Shown piece by piece: positions 7,173 to 33,090 of a DNA stretch of 64,000 nt (positions within the stretch are counted from its first letter, which is position 1; every line of letters begins with the position of its first letter). The position numbers were made by a program, and so were the translations under genes. Location: the NCBI RefSeq assembly GCF_000970205.1, contig NZ_CP009512.1:2914001-2978000 (forward strand), given 5' to 3'. The notes under the pieces were generated by a model. That model saw only the letters and a program-made list of their open reading frames with translations, searched no databases and was not told where the DNA came from. The DNA is from Methanosarcina mazei S-6. GTDB lineage: Archaea; Halobacteriota; Methanosarcinia; Methanosarcinales; Methanosarcinaceae.

Positions 7173-8054
7173 ATGACACTTGAAGGGCACGCCTGCGCTT
7201 TCGGAGCTGGAACGATAATAAATGCGATAGCTACATGGAAAGGCGCAGCATTTGGAATAGATCTAAAAACCTTTGCAGATGTGGAACTTTCTGAAAGCGA
7301 ATCTGTGATTACCGGCTCAATCAAAGAGGTGCCTGAAGGAGATACTCGCCTTATAGAACGCTGCGTGGAACTTGTCCTTGGGAGATTCGGGCTGGAACTT
7401 GGAGGCACGATAAGGACATGGAGTGAAATCCCCCTTGCAGGAGGGCTTAAGAGCAGCAGTGCAGCAGCAAACGCTTCAGTCCTTGCGACCCTTCATGCAG
7501 TGGGGGAAACAATGCCCTCTCTTGAGATCATAAAACTGGGTGTAAGGGCTGCAAAAGAAGTGGGAGTTACTGTCACTGGAGCATTTGACGATGCCTGCGC
7601 TTCTTTTCTGGGTGGTATTGTAATTACCGATAACCGGAATATGAAACTCATCAAACGTGAAGAAGCCGATTCAAGAGTCCTTATATTCGCCCCATCAAAA
7701 AAGGCTTTCAGCGCGGACACGAATGTAAAACGTTCACGGCTGATAGCACCATATGTGGAAATGGCATACGAGCTTGCTCTCGCAGGAGATTATGAACGCG
7801 CAATGACGCTTAACGGCTTTCTTTACTGCGGAGCTCTCGGGTTTGATACGGAGTATATGCTCAGGGCTCTGGAATGCGGAGTAAAAGGGGTCAGCCTTTC
7901 AGGGACAGGCCCTTCTTATGCAGCCCTGGTAAAAGCTGACCAGGTAAAAGAACTTAAGTCTGCGTGGGAAAGCTGCGGCATGGAGGGAAGAGTCATAGAA
8001 ACCAGTATAAATAACAGTGGCGCAATATCCTTTAACAGGGAGGGGTCCTCTTGA
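7173..8054 (+). CDS. aroK: Archaeal shikimate kinase (GHMP kinase family)
   Basis: Archaeal-type shikimate kinase phosphorylates shikimate with ATP in the aromatic amino acid pathway; it belongs to the GHMP fold, unrelated to bacterial AroK. Evidence: N-terminal GAGTIINAIATWKGAAFGID, the ATP loop PLAGGLKSSSAAANA (residues 87-101), and the C-terminal GVSLSGTGPSYAAL motif. First gene of an operon with chorismate mutase (4-base overlap) and purE. ATG 7173 agrees with the family N-terminus but has no ribosome site next to it; GGAGGT at 7133-7138 sits 7-8 bases before an in-frame ATT (7146), so a 9-residue longer product with a non-standard start is possible. Confidence 0.9.
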   Translation: MTLEGHACAFGAGTIINAIATWKGAAFGIDLKTFADVELSESESVITGSIKEVPEGDTRLIERCVELVLGRFGLELGGTIRTWSEIPLAGGLKSSSAAANASVLATLHAVGETMPSLEIIKLGVRAAKEVGVTVTGAFDDACASFLGGIVITDNRNMKLIKREEADSRVLIFAPSKKAFSADTNVKRSRLIAPYVEMAYELALAGDYERAMTLNGFLYCGALGFDTEYMLRALECGVKGVSLSGTGPSYAALVKADQVKELKSAWESCGMEGRVIETSINNSGAISFNREGSS

Positions 8055-8338
8055 GTGAACTTGAAGCTGTCCGCAAAGAAATAGAGGAGATTGACAGGGA
8101 AATCCTTTCCCTTATTGATAAAAGGGTTAACCTTGCTGAAAAAGTGCTTGAATCAAAAAGAATAAATGGAACTTCCATAAATGACCGTAAGCAAAATGAG
8201 GTTGTAATCAACAGGACATTAAATACTGCAACCGAGCTCAACCTCGATGTAGGGTCGGTAAAGGAAATTTTTGAAATCCTTATCAGGATGAGCATCGAAC
8301 GCCAGAATGAACTGAGTGGAAAGGGAAGCCTGCCCTGA
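8051..8338 (+). CDS. Chorismate mutase (AroQ type)
   Basis: A 95-aa stand-alone chorismate mutase converting chorismate to prephenate for phenylalanine and tyrosine synthesis. It has the AroQ all-helical pattern: LEAVRKEIEEIDREILSLID at the N-terminus with the catalytic Arg, the Lys in LAEKVLESKR, and a C-terminal EIFEILIRMSIERQNE helix supplying the Glu/Gln pair region. Translation starts at TTG 8051, overlapping the shikimate kinase stop (TTGA), with GGAGGGG just upstream; the pairing of two shikimate/aromatic genes is functionally coherent. Confidence 0.9.
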   Translation: MSELEAVRKEIEEIDREILSLIDKRVNLAEKVLESKRINGTSINDRKQNEVVINRTLNTATELNLDVGSVKEIFEILIRMSIERQNELSGKGSLP

Positions 8339-14452: not shown

Positions 14453-14653
14453 GAACACTATACAAAGTAAGCACTATCTAAAGTAAGCACTATCTAAAGT
14501 AAGCACTATCTAAAGTAAGCACTATCTAAAGTAAGCACTATCTAAAGTAAGCACTATCTAAAGTAAGCACTATCTAAAGTAAGCACTATACAAAGTGAAC
14601 ACTATCTAAAGTAAGCACTATACAAAGTGAACACTATACAAAGTGAACACTAT
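14453..14653. repeat. Tandem array of a 16-bp unit, 12 full copies
   Basis: Units of the form RARCACTATCTAAAGT run without gaps from 14453 to 14644, then a partial copy to 14653. Units 2-8 are identical (AAGCACTATCTAAAGT); the outer units carry changes GAAC for AAGC and TACAAAG for TCTAAAG, which shows expansion from the centre. A more decayed copy lies just upstream (about 14434-14452). It occupies the gap between trxB and the convergent HTH gene; no open frame is visible. Confidence 0.95.
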
Positions 14654-21578: not shown

Positions 21579-22418
21579 TTATATTTCCCACCACATCTTT
21601 ACCCTAGTGGACCATCCCCTTTGTATAAGGTTTCCGTTATCTGGTTCAAGTATTCCTTCAAGGTAGTCCCTGAGAACGGTTTCCTGGGAATCTGAGGTAA
21701 CGTTGTAGTATGATTTAAAATCCTCAACAGCTTCCTCAAAGTTTGCATACCTGTGAATATGTTCGAAGGGAAAAACACTCACATTCGGGTAGATTTCCAT
21801 GTCATACAACACATTATAGAGAACATTGCACTTCGGAGCCGGTTGATACTCACATCCGTGAAGAGATGGCCAGAGTTTTCGCGAGTGGATATCCCAGGAG
21901 GTTTCCCCTGCGAACCAGTATAGATAAATATACTTCGAAGAGGCATCCATCATTTTCCGTATCGAAGCCCTTATGTCTTTCATGCCCAGGGAATAAGAAG
22001 CAAAAACCACGTCATAAGGAGCGGAAAGATCTGACCTTACATCGACTGCTTCCCAATCTTTGTGTACGGTATCGATGTTTTCGATTCCATATTCTTTGAT
22101 ATTTTCCTGCATGACATTCATCATGCCGTCCGAGGGTTCAACCGCGGTTACATGAGCCACCTGCCTCGCAATCGGAATTGCAAGTGTTCCGGGCCCGGAT
22201 CCGATATCAAGAACTCTTGAATCAGGAGAGAGTTTCAGATCCTTTATTCTCTTCTCTGTTACTGCCCTTGCCTTATCATCCTGAAACATCCTCCAGAACT
22301 GCCTGGCATTTTTCTCGCCGTGCCATATACTCGAGCAATCGACATTTCTATTTAATGCCAGTTGCTTTTCCAGAGTATCTTTCCAAACTTTGTTCCAGTC
22401 AATCCCTTGTGAGTCCAT
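21579..22418 (-). CDS. SAM-dependent class I methyltransferase
   Basis: Rossmann-type methyltransferase of 279 aa. Motif I is VLDIGSGPGTLAIPIA, followed by the acidic residue in VTAVEPSDGMM and later VFASYSLGMKDIRA. The C-terminal half (from YLYWFAGETSWDIH on) is less typical and aromatic-rich, as in a group of methanogen methyltransferases of unknown substrate. The IS element begins about 200 bases beyond its start codon, so its promoter region is close to, but not inside, the insertion. Confidence 0.8.
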   Translation of the reverse strand: MDSQGIDWNKVWKDTLEKQLALNRNVDCSSIWHGEKNARQFWRMFQDDKARAVTEKRIKDLKLSPDSRVLDIGSGPGTLAIPIARQVAHVTAVEPSDGMMNVMQENIKEYGIENIDTVHKDWEAVDVRSDLSAPYDVVFASYSLGMKDIRASIRKMMDASSKYIYLYWFAGETSWDIHSRKLWPSLHGCEYQPAPKCNVLYNVLYDMEIYPNVSVFPFEHIHRYANFEEAVEDFKSYYNVTSDSQETVLRDYLEGILEPDNGNLIQRGWSTRVKMWWEI

Positions 22419-24402: not shown

Positions 24403-24960
24403 TCATCCCTCAACAGTTACCACGCCTTCCATAGAGGGATGAATTGAGCAATAATACCTGTAAACACCTTTTTTTGTAAAAGAAAGCTCAAATGAATCTC
24501 CGTCTCTCAGTGCGCCGGATGTGAAATCAGGACCAGTCACTGTGTGGGTGATAGGATCAAGATTTGTCCACCTGACTGTATCATTGGTAGATATCGTAAC
24601 CGATTCCGGATTGAAGGTAAAGTTTTCTATTTTCGCCTCGACCACTCTGGCTTCGGCTTGAGTATCAGGCATTCCAACCGGGGTTTCGGAAAGGTTTTCA
24701 GGTTCTGTACGGGTCAGGTTTTCACTGGGAATCTGGTCAGACGTATTTTCGGGAGTTTCGACGTTTCCAGCTGGACCCTGAGGTACTTCGGCTGGAAGTA
24801 CCGGAGTTTCAAAAGGTGTTTCGGATGGAGTTGCTGGAATCTCAACAGGTGTTTCAACCGGAGAAACAGATGGCTCAGGTTCTACAGAACCGTTTTCTGC
24901 ACAGCCTGAGGGTAAAAGTGCCCCAAGTAGAATTATAAAAATAACATATTCTTTTCTCAC
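24403..24960 (-). CDS. Cupredoxin (plastocyanin-like) lipoprotein
   Basis: The N-terminus is a lipoprotein signal ending LLPSGC, so the mature protein should be anchored outside the membrane by its Cys. A Pro/Glu/Thr-rich linker of about 85 residues (SVSPVETPVEIPATPSET) leads to a 90-residue blue-copper domain. Likely Cu ligands are the His of ITHTVTGPDF and the Cys, His and Met of YYCSIHPSMEGV. Such proteins move electrons or hold copper outside the cell. Start is GTG 24960 with GGAGGG 7 bases upstream. It is one of three lipoproteins with similar linkers in this region; the IS element lies directly downstream. Confidence 0.87.
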   Translation of the reverse strand: MRKEYVIFIILLGALLPSGCAENGSVEPEPSVSPVETPVEIPATPSETPFETPVLPAEVPQGPAGNVETPENTSDQIPSENLTRTEPENLSETPVGMPDTQAEARVVEAKIENFTFNPESVTISTNDTVRWTNLDPITHTVTGPDFTSGALRDGDSFELSFTKKGVYRYYCSIHPSMEGVVTVEG

Positions 24961-25096
24961 TGGCTTCCCTCCAAAGGAAATGAATACTATGGTATAAAAA
25001 AATTAAAAGTGTTTTTATAAGGATCTCCTTGATGAAGTATTGGAAAACAGGAGATTTGCATCTTTGCATCTTAGCAGATCATTAGCTCTAAAACTC

Positions 25097-25606
25097 TCAC
25101 TCATTCTCTTTTACTATTACGGTTCCCTCCATAGAAGGATGAATTTCACAGTAATACTCGTAAGTGCCCGGGTCGGTAAAAAGGAACTCATATGAAGCCC
25201 CAGGATTTAGATTATTAATCCCAAAAGTGGCCCCTGTTACGGTATGAGGAGTTGAATCAAGGTTAGTCCATCTTACAGTATCACCTGTAAATATATTCAC
25301 TGTAGCCGGGTCAAAGGCGTTATCCTCTATCATAACTTCAACAGTCTCTCCATTGACTGGAAGCGCGGGTGTTTCTCCCGGAGCTGCTTCATCTCTTACC
25401 GGCGTCAAGACTGGTTCCGAAGTATCTTCTTCAACCGGAGTTACAGTTTCAACCGGAGTTACAGTTTCAACCGGAGTTACAGTTTCAACCGGAGTTACAG
25501 TTTCAACCGGAGTTACAGTTTCAGCTGGCTCAGTACCATCTTCTGTACATCCCACAACCAGGAATACACTACACAAAATTAGCAAAATAAACAGTTCTCT
25601 ATTCAT
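25097..25606 (-). CDS. Cupredoxin lipoprotein with PVETVT repeats
   Basis: Paralogue of the neighbouring cupredoxin gene (169 aa from ATG 25606, which has GGGGGAAAAT just upstream). Signal peptide and lipobox FLVVGC, then five exact or near-exact copies of the hexapeptide VETVTP, then an extended linker and a blue-copper domain with VRWTNLDSTPHTVTGA and YYCEIHPSMEGTV carrying the His, Cys, His and Met ligands. The linker repeats should hold the domain away from the membrane surface. The linker length can change easily because it is encoded by an 18-bp tandem repeat. Confidence 0.88.
   Translation of the reverse strand: MNRELFILLILCSVFLVVGCTEDGTEPAETVTPVETVTPVETVTPVETVTPVETVTPVEEDTSEPVLTPVRDEAAPGETPALPVNGETVEVMIEDNAFDPATVNIFTGDTVRWTNLDSTPHTVTGATFGINNLNPGASYEFLFTDPGTYEYYCEIHPSMEGTVIVKENE
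25431..25520. repeat. Five tandem copies of an 18-bp coding unit
   Basis: TCAACCGGAGTTACAGTT repeats five times with no mismatch inside the cupredoxin lipoprotein gene and encodes the PVETVT hexapeptides on the minus strand. Unit length is a multiple of three, so copy changes keep the frame. Confidence 0.95.
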
Positions 25607-26109
25607 ATTTTCCCCCATTCAAAATCAGTGCTATATAATTAATCATTAGATTTTATAAAAATTCCTGCGAAATTATGAATACAGTTCCCTTTCTTACATT
25701 TTAGTACTCGATCAAGGATTTACCTGAATATAACACTGGACCAAGTTTATTTACCTAATAATCGCTTTCCAGCAATATACATAAAGAACACTTCAAAATA
25801 CGACTTCCTGGAAATGACAGAGATTCCTGGAATCTTGGATAGAGATCGACAGAATTAACCAGGCAGAGATTTGACCAGATTATCAGGCAGAAACATGGCC
25901 AGATTGTCAGGTAGAAACATGACCAGATAATGCATGATATTTATAACAGATGGAGGTTGATCTAAAAAAGTAAAACGTTTTTAAAGGCTCTTTCGCTGAA
26001 ATTAAATTCCGGACAATACCGAAACTTCAGGAGATTGCCGTTTAACTTTTTATCAGGTTAACTCCCTCACTGTTATACCTCCATTATCGCAAAAGCGGGT
26101 GAAACCTGT
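25607..26109. other. Intergenic region with 24-bp tandem repeats
   Basis: Contains two full and one partial copy of a 24-bp unit (GACCAGATTATCAGGCAGAA and following bases) at 25873-25896, 25897-25920 and 25921-25935. At 25978-26000 lies a sequence that is a near inverted copy of 22575-22596. No gene is recognised before the small frame at 26110. Confidence 0.6.
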
Positions 26110-26274
26110 ATGGACAATGGAGATCCTTTTTCGGCAAATCCAAACTCTCGTTTTCGTTATCTGGATATTGAGACAGAGTATGATAACTATCGCTATGTAT
26201 CTGGGAGTTCGTATATAATACCGAAGTACAGTGCAGAGGATTACGTATCAGACAGATTCCCGGTCATTTCTTGA
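26110..26274 (+). CDS. Possible small protein (54 aa), unrecognised
   Basis: Short open frame beginning MDNGDPFSANPNSRFRYLDI, rich in Tyr, Asp and Ser, ending DYVSDRFPVIS. A reasonable ribosome site (GGGTGA, 7 bases before the ATG) precedes it and the sequence is less AT-rich than its surroundings. It converges on the repeat-only lipoprotein gene with 7 bases between the two stops. No family recognised; it could also be a remnant. Confidence 0.3.
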   Translation: MDNGDPFSANPNSRFRYLDIETEYDNYRYVSGSSYIIPKYSAEDYVSDRFPVIS

Positions 26275-26281
26275 AGGCTGG

Positions 26282-26722
26282 TTACCTGTTAGGGGTTACT
26301 CTGATTACTCCTGTTCTCTCTTCTGTCACATTCTCTTCTGTAGCTTCTTCATCTGGAGTCTCGTCCTCAACCGGAGTCTCATCTTCAACCGGAGTTGCAT
26401 CTTCAATTGGTTCTTCAACTGGAGTTACTGCCACAACTGGAGTTTCTTCCACAACTGCAGTCTCTTCCACAACTGGAGTTTCTTCCACAACAGGAGTTAC
26501 TTCCTGAACAGCTTCAACTGGAGTTACAACTTCTTCTCCAGTTACAACTTCAACCGGAGTTTCAGCTTCAACACCTGTTACAACCTCAACTGGCGTTACC
26601 AGTTCGGTTACTCCTTCTTCAGCGGGCTCTTCTTCAGCCGGTTCTTCAGTACCTTGCTCTGCGCATCCTATTGCAAGGAATACGCCTAAAAGAATTATTA
26701 AAATAAGCAATGCTTTTCTCAT
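26282..26722 (-). CDS. Lipoprotein made only of Pro/Val/Glu/Thr repeats
   Basis: The first 20 residues (MRKALLILIILLGVFLAIGC) are a clear lipoprotein signal, closely like those of the two cupredoxin genes, and a GGGGGG ribosome site precedes the ATG. The remaining 126 residues are degenerate repeats of VTPVE, PVVEET and PVEDET type with a strongly negative charge. No cupredoxin domain follows: the protein ends GVIRVTPNR. It is therefore either a surface spacer protein or a paralogue that lost its copper domain. No trace of the lost domain is readable downstream. Confidence 0.75.
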   Translation of the reverse strand: MRKALLILIILLGVFLAIGCAEQGTEEPAEEEPAEEGVTELVTPVEVVTGVEAETPVEVVTGEEVVTPVEAVQEVTPVVEETPVVEETAVVEETPVVAVTPVEEPIEDATPVEDETPVEDETPDEEATEENVTEERTGVIRVTPNR

Positions 26723-26973: not shown

Positions 26974-28338
26974 ATGAAAATCAAATCCATAGATCCTTAT
27001 ACTGAAGAAGTAAACTGGACTTACGATGCATTATCTTTCGGGGACTGTGAGGACCAGATAGAAAAGTCCAGAGCTGCTTTCTTGAAATGGGGTTCTCTTT
27101 CGGTAAAGGAAAGAACAGCTTACATTTCACGGGTAGCTGAGATACTCAGGCAGAACAGACGAATATATGCCGGGATAATCACAAAAGAAATGGGAAAACC
27201 TGTAAGGCAGTCACTTGCAGAGATAGAAAAATGCGCATGGCTGTGTGACTATTACGCAGAAAATGCAGCCGGGTTTCTGGAAGATGAGCTTGTAGAAACA
27301 GAAGCAGAAAAAAGCTATGTCACTTTTGAGCCCCTGGGAGTTATTCTCGGGATAATGCCATGGAATTTTCCTTTCTGGCAGACTTTCAGATTTGCAGTGC
27401 CTACATTGATTGCAGGAAACGTGTGCCTGCTGAAGCACGCATCCAATGTGCCCGGATCGGCTCTTGAGATAGAAAAGGTTTTTACAGGCGCTGGACTTCC
27501 TCAAGATGTATTTAAGAGCCTGCTTATAGACTCCAGAACCGCCATGGAAATTATTGACGAAGATCTTGTTGACGGGATTTCCCTTACCGGAAGTGTGCGA
27601 GCCGGGTCTGAAATTGGAGAACTCGCCGGAAGGACGATTAAACCCTTCGTTCTGGAACTTGGAGGGTCTGACCCTTTTATAGTGCTTGAAGATGCAGATA
27701 TAGACCGGGCTGCTGAGGTTGGAGTAAGAGCCCGTTTCATCAATACAGGGCAAAGCTGCATTGCTGCCAAGAGGTTCATTGTAGTTGAAGATGTGGTCGT
27801 GGATTTCATTGAGGCGTTCGAACTGCACATGCAGGAGTTAAAGGTCGGAGATCCCATGGATGAAGAAACCGACATAGGGCCTGTGGCAAAAAAAGAATTT
27901 ATTGACAGCCTTGAGAGAGTCCTGAAGGACGCAAAGAAGAAAGGAGCAGAACCCCGCGTCTACGGCGAAGAGCATAAAAAAGGCTTTTTCTTCAGGCCGA
28001 CCATTGTGCCTGCAGCCAGCACAGACATGAAAGTCCTGAATATGGAAGTCTTCGGGCCTATTGCGCCTGTGGTCATGGTAAAGGATGAAGATGAGGCAGT
28101 AAAAATTGCAAACTCAACAGATTTCGGGCTCGGAGCCGAGATCTGGTCTGCAGACCTGAAAAGAGCCGAGCATCTGGCAAAAAGGATAAAGTCGGGTTTT
28201 GTAACCATAAATGGAAGAGTCAAGTCTGACCCAAGGCTGCCTTTCGGAGGCGTCAAAAAATCCGGAATCGGAAGGGAGCTTTCACATTACGGGCTGAAAG
28301 AATTTGTAAACATAAAAACCGTGGTTATTAATAAGTAA
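26974..28338 (+). CDS. Aldehyde dehydrogenase (succinate-semialdehyde dehydrogenase type)
   Basis: NAD(P)-dependent aldehyde dehydrogenase of 454 aa that oxidises an aldehyde to its acid. Family marks: PLGVILGIMPWNFPFWQTFR, the catalytic Glu in FVLELGGSDPFIV, the catalytic Cys in NTGQSCIAAKRF, and EVFGPIAPVVMV with a C-terminal LPFGGVKKSGIGRE. This short form is of the YneI/SSADH-like group. GGGGGGAG precedes the ATG. The next gene, 170 bases downstream and same strand, is a TPP-dependent enzyme that could supply an aldehyde. True substrate unknown. Confidence 0.9.
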   Translation: MKIKSIDPYTEEVNWTYDALSFGDCEDQIEKSRAAFLKWGSLSVKERTAYISRVAEILRQNRRIYAGIITKEMGKPVRQSLAEIEKCAWLCDYYAENAAGFLEDELVETEAEKSYVTFEPLGVILGIMPWNFPFWQTFRFAVPTLIAGNVCLLKHASNVPGSALEIEKVFTGAGLPQDVFKSLLIDSRTAMEIIDEDLVDGISLTGSVRAGSEIGELAGRTIKPFVLELGGSDPFIVLEDADIDRAAEVGVRARFINTGQSCIAAKRFIVVEDVVVDFIEAFELHMQELKVGDPMDEETDIGPVAKKEFIDSLERVLKDAKKKGAEPRVYGEEHKKGFFFRPTIVPAASTDMKVLNMEVFGPIAPVVMVKDEDEAVKIANSTDFGLGAEIWSADLKRAEHLAKRIKSGFVTINGRVKSDPRLPFGGVKKSGIGRELSHYGLKEFVNIKTVVINK

Positions 28339-32858: not shown

Positions 32859-32951
32859 ATCAGTAATATTGTATAATTGTATATCAGTAATATTTATAAT
32901 TGGATATCAGTAATATTTATAATTGGATATCAGTAATATTTATAATTGTAT
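32859..32951. repeat. Four tandem copies of a 23-24-bp unit
   Basis: ATCAGTAATATTTATAATTG-type units lie at 32859-32882, 32883-32905, 32906-32928 and 32929-32951, in the 605-base gap between zinc-ribbon copy 3 and aIF1A copy 2. No gene is visible in 32486-33090; the part next to 32486 is probably promoter and leader of aIF1A copy 2. Confidence 0.92.
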
Positions 32952-33090
32952 AATTCAGTGCTCAACATGTTCACACTATCTCAGAATTCCATGCTTTTCA
33001 CCTGAGCACAGGGAGAAAAACAAAGACTAAAAAGTGAGCAGTGTTGCTGTATAGCCTTACAGAACAACACCCATAAGAGAATATTCAAAT

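Follow-up and report, generated by a model that had tools for sequence, protein, structure and literature searches.

The window, a stretch of 64,000 nucleotides from the 4.14 Mb single-contig genome of Methanosarcina mazei S-6, contains three lipoprotein genes between 24403 and 26722, all encoded by the minus strand and read as P0003, then P0002, then P0001 (Table 1). All three ORFs described in the original prediction are present, as are the GGGGG-type ribosome sites it had assigned to two of them, with GGGGG before P0002 and GGGGGG before P0003. P0001 has GGAGGG upstream of its start. For P0002, a longer ORF start at 25618 precedes the GGGGG site, and the shorter ORF was taken as the gene. 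The three proteins are predicted to be lipoproteins on the basis of a lipobox, with its cysteine at residue 20, and the pair G19-C20 is invariant in our alignments A1 and A2. On the far side of the group, a transposase ORF (PF13751, PF01609, PF05598; 22716-24209, minus strand) sits between P0001 and a methyltransferase gene (21579-22418); in the related locus L108 of genome G001, the methyltransferase comes after the P0001 relative with no transposase ORF in between.

Table 1. Features of the three-gene locus and its surroundings (window coordinates)
Feature	Position	Strand	Remarks
P0001, predicted cupredoxin lipoprotein	24403-24960	-	GTG start, 185 aa; PF00127 and PF13473; H, C, H, M ligands
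P0002, predicted cupredoxin lipoprotein	25097-25606	-	169 aa; PF13473 and PF00127; AlphaFold model; fold matches
Perfect tandem array in P0002 linker, 18 bp x 5.2	25430-25523	-	100% match
Promoter-like element of P0002	25629-25658	-	
Flank 3' of P0003, presumed to be a strongly decayed cupredoxin domain (judged through relatives)	26087-26281	-	
P0003, predicted stalk lipoprotein without domain	26282-26722	-	146 aa; C-terminal tail TGVIRVTPNR
Imperfect 18-bp arrays in P0003	26355-26406, 26416-26504, 26508-26599	-	
Promoter-like element of P0003	26747-26776	-	
Divergent aldehyde dehydrogenase, syntenic neighbor	26974-28338	+	PF00171

A blue-copper domain was found, as had been proposed, in P0001 and P0002 only. 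P0001 matches PF00127 with 37.5 bits (cut-off 21.2) and PF13473 with 32.5 bits (cut-off 27), while P0002 matches PF13473 with 50 bits and PF00127 with 39.6 bits, both above the Pfam cut-offs. All 16 aligned cupredoxins, P0001 and P0002 among them, retain the type-1 copper ligands H, C, H, and M, which bears out the description of the two as surface-type copper lipoproteins, with copper binding predicted from sequence. The AlphaFold model of P0002, built on a 7-sequence alignment, shows a domain block with mean pLDDT of 90-96 from residue 91 and a low-confidence linker, and the nearest solved folds to the domain are amicyanin, a Nitrosopumilus purple cupredoxin, and plastocyanin. Amicyanin and plastocyanin are best matches, and the C-x2-H-x2-M loop of P0002 resembles that of amicyanin, which has the same spacing. 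Both are, however, soluble carriers, and P0001 and P0002 fall below both NCBIfam equivalog cut-offs (amicyanin, cut-off 110.2, with 35.3 and 42.2 bits, respectively; plastocyanin, cut-off 87.85, with 30.4 and 44.1). The NCBIfam halocyanin cut-off of 93.8 was likewise not reached (30.2 and 27.9 bits).

With respect to characterized archaeal and methanogen proteins, halocyanin of Natronomonas pharaonis is a blue copper protein carrying an N-terminal lipid on its lipobox cysteine (PMC2945643). P0001 and P0002 appear to share this layout but score far below the halocyanin cut-off, and the portions of that paper available to us mention no stalk-only partner of the P0003 kind. In Methanosarcina barkeri, according to the consulted portions of a second report, a protein that combines a cupredoxin domain and a lipoprotein site is up 7.3-fold during direct interspecies electron transfer, together with a second cupredoxin (2.9-fold) and a cytochrome b5-like protein (2.0-fold); its authors remark that the potentials known for cupredoxins lie above those the path would lead one to expect (PMC6315138). 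These proteins come from the same genus as P0001 and P0002, their orthology being a supposition, and those portions of the report do not mention stalk-only relatives. Copper proteins carried outside the membrane on long, lipid-anchored stalks would be suited to passing electrons or copper close to the S-layer.

Several related lipoproteins were observed elsewhere. In the genome of the window (L112:6882-7289, about 3840881), a leader and linker of this style are joined to a cytochrome-b5-like domain (PF00173), with relatives in loci L117, L123, L126, L128, and L141. Two further lipoproteins of this genome (L113:5107-5661 and 7449-8087) are by eye cupredoxin-like without the copper ligands and have no Pfam Copper-bind match. 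Genome G028 encodes a 335-aa cupredoxin with Met-rich, sequon-rich NMTGMD repeats ahead of its domain, possibly copper-binding (L025:1492-2499).

P0003 matches no Pfam family above cut-off, and no cupredoxin domain was detected in it; it is a relative of the lipoproteins and not a cupredoxin. The 126 residues past its lipobox cysteine are strongly acidic (D+E = 40, K+R = 3). The earlier description of the protein as acidic repeat alone needs one correction, since it ends in a non-acidic tail, TGVIRVTPNR, that is kept in relatives. The AlphaFold model of P0003 (10 sequences) is disordered save for the signal helix, with a mean pLDDT of 56.8.

To place P0003 among its relatives, we searched 30 Methanosarcina genomes, one per species, and read the fetched loci. 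Tail-bearing stalk proteins were found in 20 of them, the genome of P0003 counted, and 34 such proteins from these genomes form alignment A1. They share a common leader, a highly variable linker, and a tail at the C terminus, which reads V-I-x-V-T-P or a looser version of that motif and is followed by their own stop; M1, C20, and the tail proline are common to all 34. The full motif V-[IV]-[RKQH]-[VMI]-T-P, then 2-5 residues and the stop, is present in 28 members. Every one of them has R, K, Q, or H at the third position and none has an acidic residue there, even though P0003 and several of its relatives are Glu-rich. The remaining six combine the looser tail with sequon repeats (7-13 sequons each vs 1.5-3.8 in shuffles), and one full-motif stalk, in L107 (G011), also bears N-glycosylation-sequon repeats. 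Linker length ranges from 87 to 135 residues, and the repeats differ widely; G008, for example, has PTEGMT and G009 has TEEMAP. The ends of these proteins are fixed and the middle is free. Some species hold two or three copies. The tail count refers to the members chosen for A1 rather than to every stalk ORF: two stalk ORFs were left out, of which that in L109 (G005) stops short of the tail and that in L107 (G011) has GVIK as its last residues. In the other 10 genomes a tail-bearing stalk was not confirmed; several of these are fragmentary, the G024 gene runs into N, and the reading covered part of the candidates.

None of the 34 aligned relatives was seen to end in a different domain, in keeping with the original prediction that the third gene belongs to the same family as the cupredoxin lipoproteins but lacks the domain. 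That assignment holds, whereas the gene is not a one-off: it is common in the genus and has a conserved tail of its own. As a pattern, the tail alone gives 4 matches in the genome of P0003 and a reversed control pattern gives 3; in the scan of loci from this genome, the P0003 site was the only one to yield a tail-bearing lipoprotein ORF. Across 185 genomes of the order, none of the matches listed from outside the genus reached the tail. The portions we consulted of the literature on Methanosarcina cupredoxins, blue copper proteins, plastocyanin, lipoproteins, and archaeal lipobox cupredoxins contain no description of the stalk family. The tail codons are unusually uniform at third positions, with GTA in 23/28 and 22/28 and ACT in 23/28 genes; in 16 aldehyde dehydrogenase genes, these make up 0.29 and 0.34 of their codons. 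Such uniformity may reflect gene conversion or a role at the DNA level.

The five identical 18-bp units reported for the P0002 linker are present as an array of 5.2 copies. It contains an exact 76-nt run at shift 18, and since the exact runs of the other 14 cupredoxins do not exceed 15 nt, it looks like a recent local expansion; P0002 is the only one of 15 cupredoxins compared with an exact 18-bp array of at least two copies. Among stalk genes, exact runs of at least 18 nt at this shift occur in 10/28 full-motif and 1/6 looser-tail members. The stretch ahead of the domain, leader included, spans 56-109 residues in 13 cupredoxins (two further rows were dropped where the pattern missed the domain start), vs 76-81 for the domain itself. 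Taken together with the unique P0002 array, this length range would be expected if the arrays shifted copy number quickly and thereby tuned or varied the cell surface, as in the "phase-like" variation originally proposed. We regard such a function as improbable. The repeat units are multiples of three and preserve the frame, so they imply no on/off switch, and the comparison is of one genome per species; the phase-like label is not supported. Further tandem arrays in the window lie at 14456-14653 (16 bp x 12.4, 92% match) and 32859-32952 (23 bp x 4, 95% match).

The surroundings of the stalk genes are also conserved. The divergent aldehyde dehydrogenase was matched in 16 of the 20 fetched loci L092-L111, as well as in L115, L118, and L130, and the stalk gene adjoins a same-strand cupredoxin gene in 13 of the 20 genomes. 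In the other seven, no cupredoxin was seen beside the stalk: the fetched loci of G003, G005, and G029 have none there, G013 is counted here because its copy has nine stops, and in G008, G009, and G010 a PF00127 match is either missing or lies far away, at about 335 kb or 92 kb. A whole-genome PF00127 search at E 0.001 found none in G003, G005, G008, G013, and G029, with weaker relatives occurring, for example, in G003. The stalk therefore seems not to need a neighboring copper protein. The cupredoxin with nine stops in G013 (L111:8131-8538) was observed next to two intact stalk genes.

A promoter-like element, TTATAAAA-N6-11-TTAATTATAAAGCA, was found upstream of all stalk genes in A1 (28/28 full-motif, 6/6 looser-tail) and of 14/15 cupredoxin genes in a genus-wide scan that allowed up to 6 mismatches within 150 bp of the start, compared with 0/15 aldehyde dehydrogenase genes and 22/245 shuffles. 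With an 8-base gap and at most 3 mismatches, the genome of P0003 has two sites, before P0002 and P0003, both exact; a reversed control pattern also gave two.

The original prediction further suggested that a lost cupredoxin domain might be found 3' of the third gene in relatives. A frame-by-frame test of the flanks gave its best match in G010 (E 4e-4). The main test was a frameshift-tolerant alignment of each flank to a profile of 16 intact domains, with 300 first-order random sequences per flank as the null. Four of the 34 flanks scored above every null, namely those of G010 (67.1, z 16.6), G001 (46.2, z 9.4), and G008 (38.6, z 7.0), and one of the two G007 flanks, which holds a partial relic (33.8, z 4.2). 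The other 30, including that of P0003 (z 0.3), did not exceed every null; two of them, from G019 and G011, reached p < 0.01 and were left out of the relic count, the best match in G019 being placed unlike that of its relatives. The relic begins in frame at the first codon past the stop in G010 and G001 and one base later in G008. In G010, it spans the first strand to the HP region and retains one of the four copper ligands. When the flanks were halved, both halves were significant in G010, G001, and G008 and only the second half in the one G007 copy, with nothing significant in the second G007 copy or G009. A plain HMM search of the four spacers of the window found no cupredoxin remnant above background, with the P0002 gene as positive control at 202 bits.

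For P0003 itself, the suggestion of a lost domain thus stands through its relatives and not through its own flank. That flank is 62.8% identical to the G019 flank (shuffle mean 44.8%), which in turn is 55.8% identical to that of G010 (shuffle maximum 47.0%); compared directly with G010, it reaches 49.3%, which is within the reach of shuffles (mean 45.9%, maximum 57.1%). Its second half reaches p 0.08 and that of G019 p 0.03, and its best match, at nt 135-195, lies near the G007 relic (nt 141-201). We infer, by way of the homologous G019 flank, that the P0003 flank would also be a cupredoxin relic. Two other ideas were discarded. An origin of the tail from the final cupredoxin strand (GTVIV vs GVIRV) was dropped, as in G010 and G001 the first strand of the relic follows the tail. 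TAG is a sense codon in Methanosarcina, and pyrrolysine read-through of the stop was rejected because the 34 aligned stalk genes end in 25 TAA and 9 TGA. As a separate case of domain loss in the family, a P0001 ortholog in G019 (L092:8494-8886) stops inside its copper domain.

The dN/dS ratios of the stalk genes lie between 0.12 and 0.74 in 10 of 12 pairs and at 0.91 and 1.14 in two G004/G025 pairs; the single sequon stalk pair gives 0.72. For comparison, cupredoxins give 0.20-0.51 (4 pairs) and aldehyde dehydrogenases 0.08-0.14 (3 pairs), the pairs being non-independent and the linkers poorly alignable. These values support, without proving, mostly purifying selection on the stalk genes. The two values near 1, the missing domain and low complexity of the proteins, and the loss of the tail motif in two stalk ORFs (G005, G011) are what would be expected if P0003 and its relatives were dying genes without use. 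Against this, 20 of 30 genomes have them as open frames that retain the tail, the promoter-like element precedes all 34, and the ratio does not exceed 0.74 in most pairs, so we consider decay of this kind very improbable.

On balance, it is somewhat probable that P0003 descends from a copper-domain lipoprotein cut at the start of its domain, with the anchor, stalk, and end retained as a protein in its own right. This origin is backed by the leader and linker common to stalks and cupredoxins, by the promoter-like element that the two groups share, by the relic that follows the stop in G010, G001, and G008 and in one G007 copy, and by the tail of the 28 full-motif members together with the low dN/dS ratio of most stalk pairs. 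It is weakened by the 30 flanks that fail to exceed every null, P0003's included, by the lack of resemblance between the P0003 and G010 flanks beyond that of shuffles, and by the two pairs with a ratio near 1. That the relic is still so readable in G010 is surprising if the domain was lost as early as the genus arose. The G001 and G010 flanks are moreover 82% identical, with differences spread unevenly over codon positions (10, 10, 23), and differ less than the synonymous sites of the gene (34%); neither this pattern nor the low divergence is predicted by simple neutral decay.

In a different history, the stalk family would be old and independent, would share its leader, promoter, and linker with the cupredoxin lipoproteins through recombination, and would have acquired the relic when a separate cupredoxin copy landed behind it in one branch. 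Tail-bearing stalks are far more widespread than the clear relic, which four genomes hold; an intact protein with both tail and domain was not seen, which also counts against a truncation; and cupredoxin genes are direct neighbors in 13 of 20 genomes. In G010 and G001, however, the relic is in frame from the first codon after the stop and begins at the start of the domain, an arrangement that a landed copy would reach only by chance, and we find this history unlikely.

If the truncation took place as we favor, the three genes would encode a single family of surface proteins with lipid anchors, and at least two of the genes share a promoter type. In P0001 and P0002, the blue-copper domain sits on a flexible stalk and would transfer electrons or copper at the cell surface. 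In the ancestor of P0003, a stop codon where the copper domain begins would have truncated the protein; the severed domain would then have decayed, while the anchor, stalk, and end would have persisted as a separate protein, now in two or three copies in some species. Our best guess is that the stalk is a lipid-anchored surface spacer, extended and charged or glycosylated, between the membrane and the S-layer. A variable brush between fixed ends suggests a tether of set reach from membrane to S-layer, and the bare stalk may be best viewed as a spacer or brush with the tail as its docking end. The fuller proposal, that cupredoxin lipoproteins which had lost their copper domain were re-used, with the linker working as an acidic or N-glycan (NNTT repeats) brush and the last residues as a conserved docking tail, is put forward as a tentative one. 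On this view, the locus offers a readable case in which a protein shrank to its linker and survived as such, while a few relatives still show the lost domain. It also points to a group of surface copper proteins that are likely co-regulated, in a genus with unexplained extracellular electron uptake.
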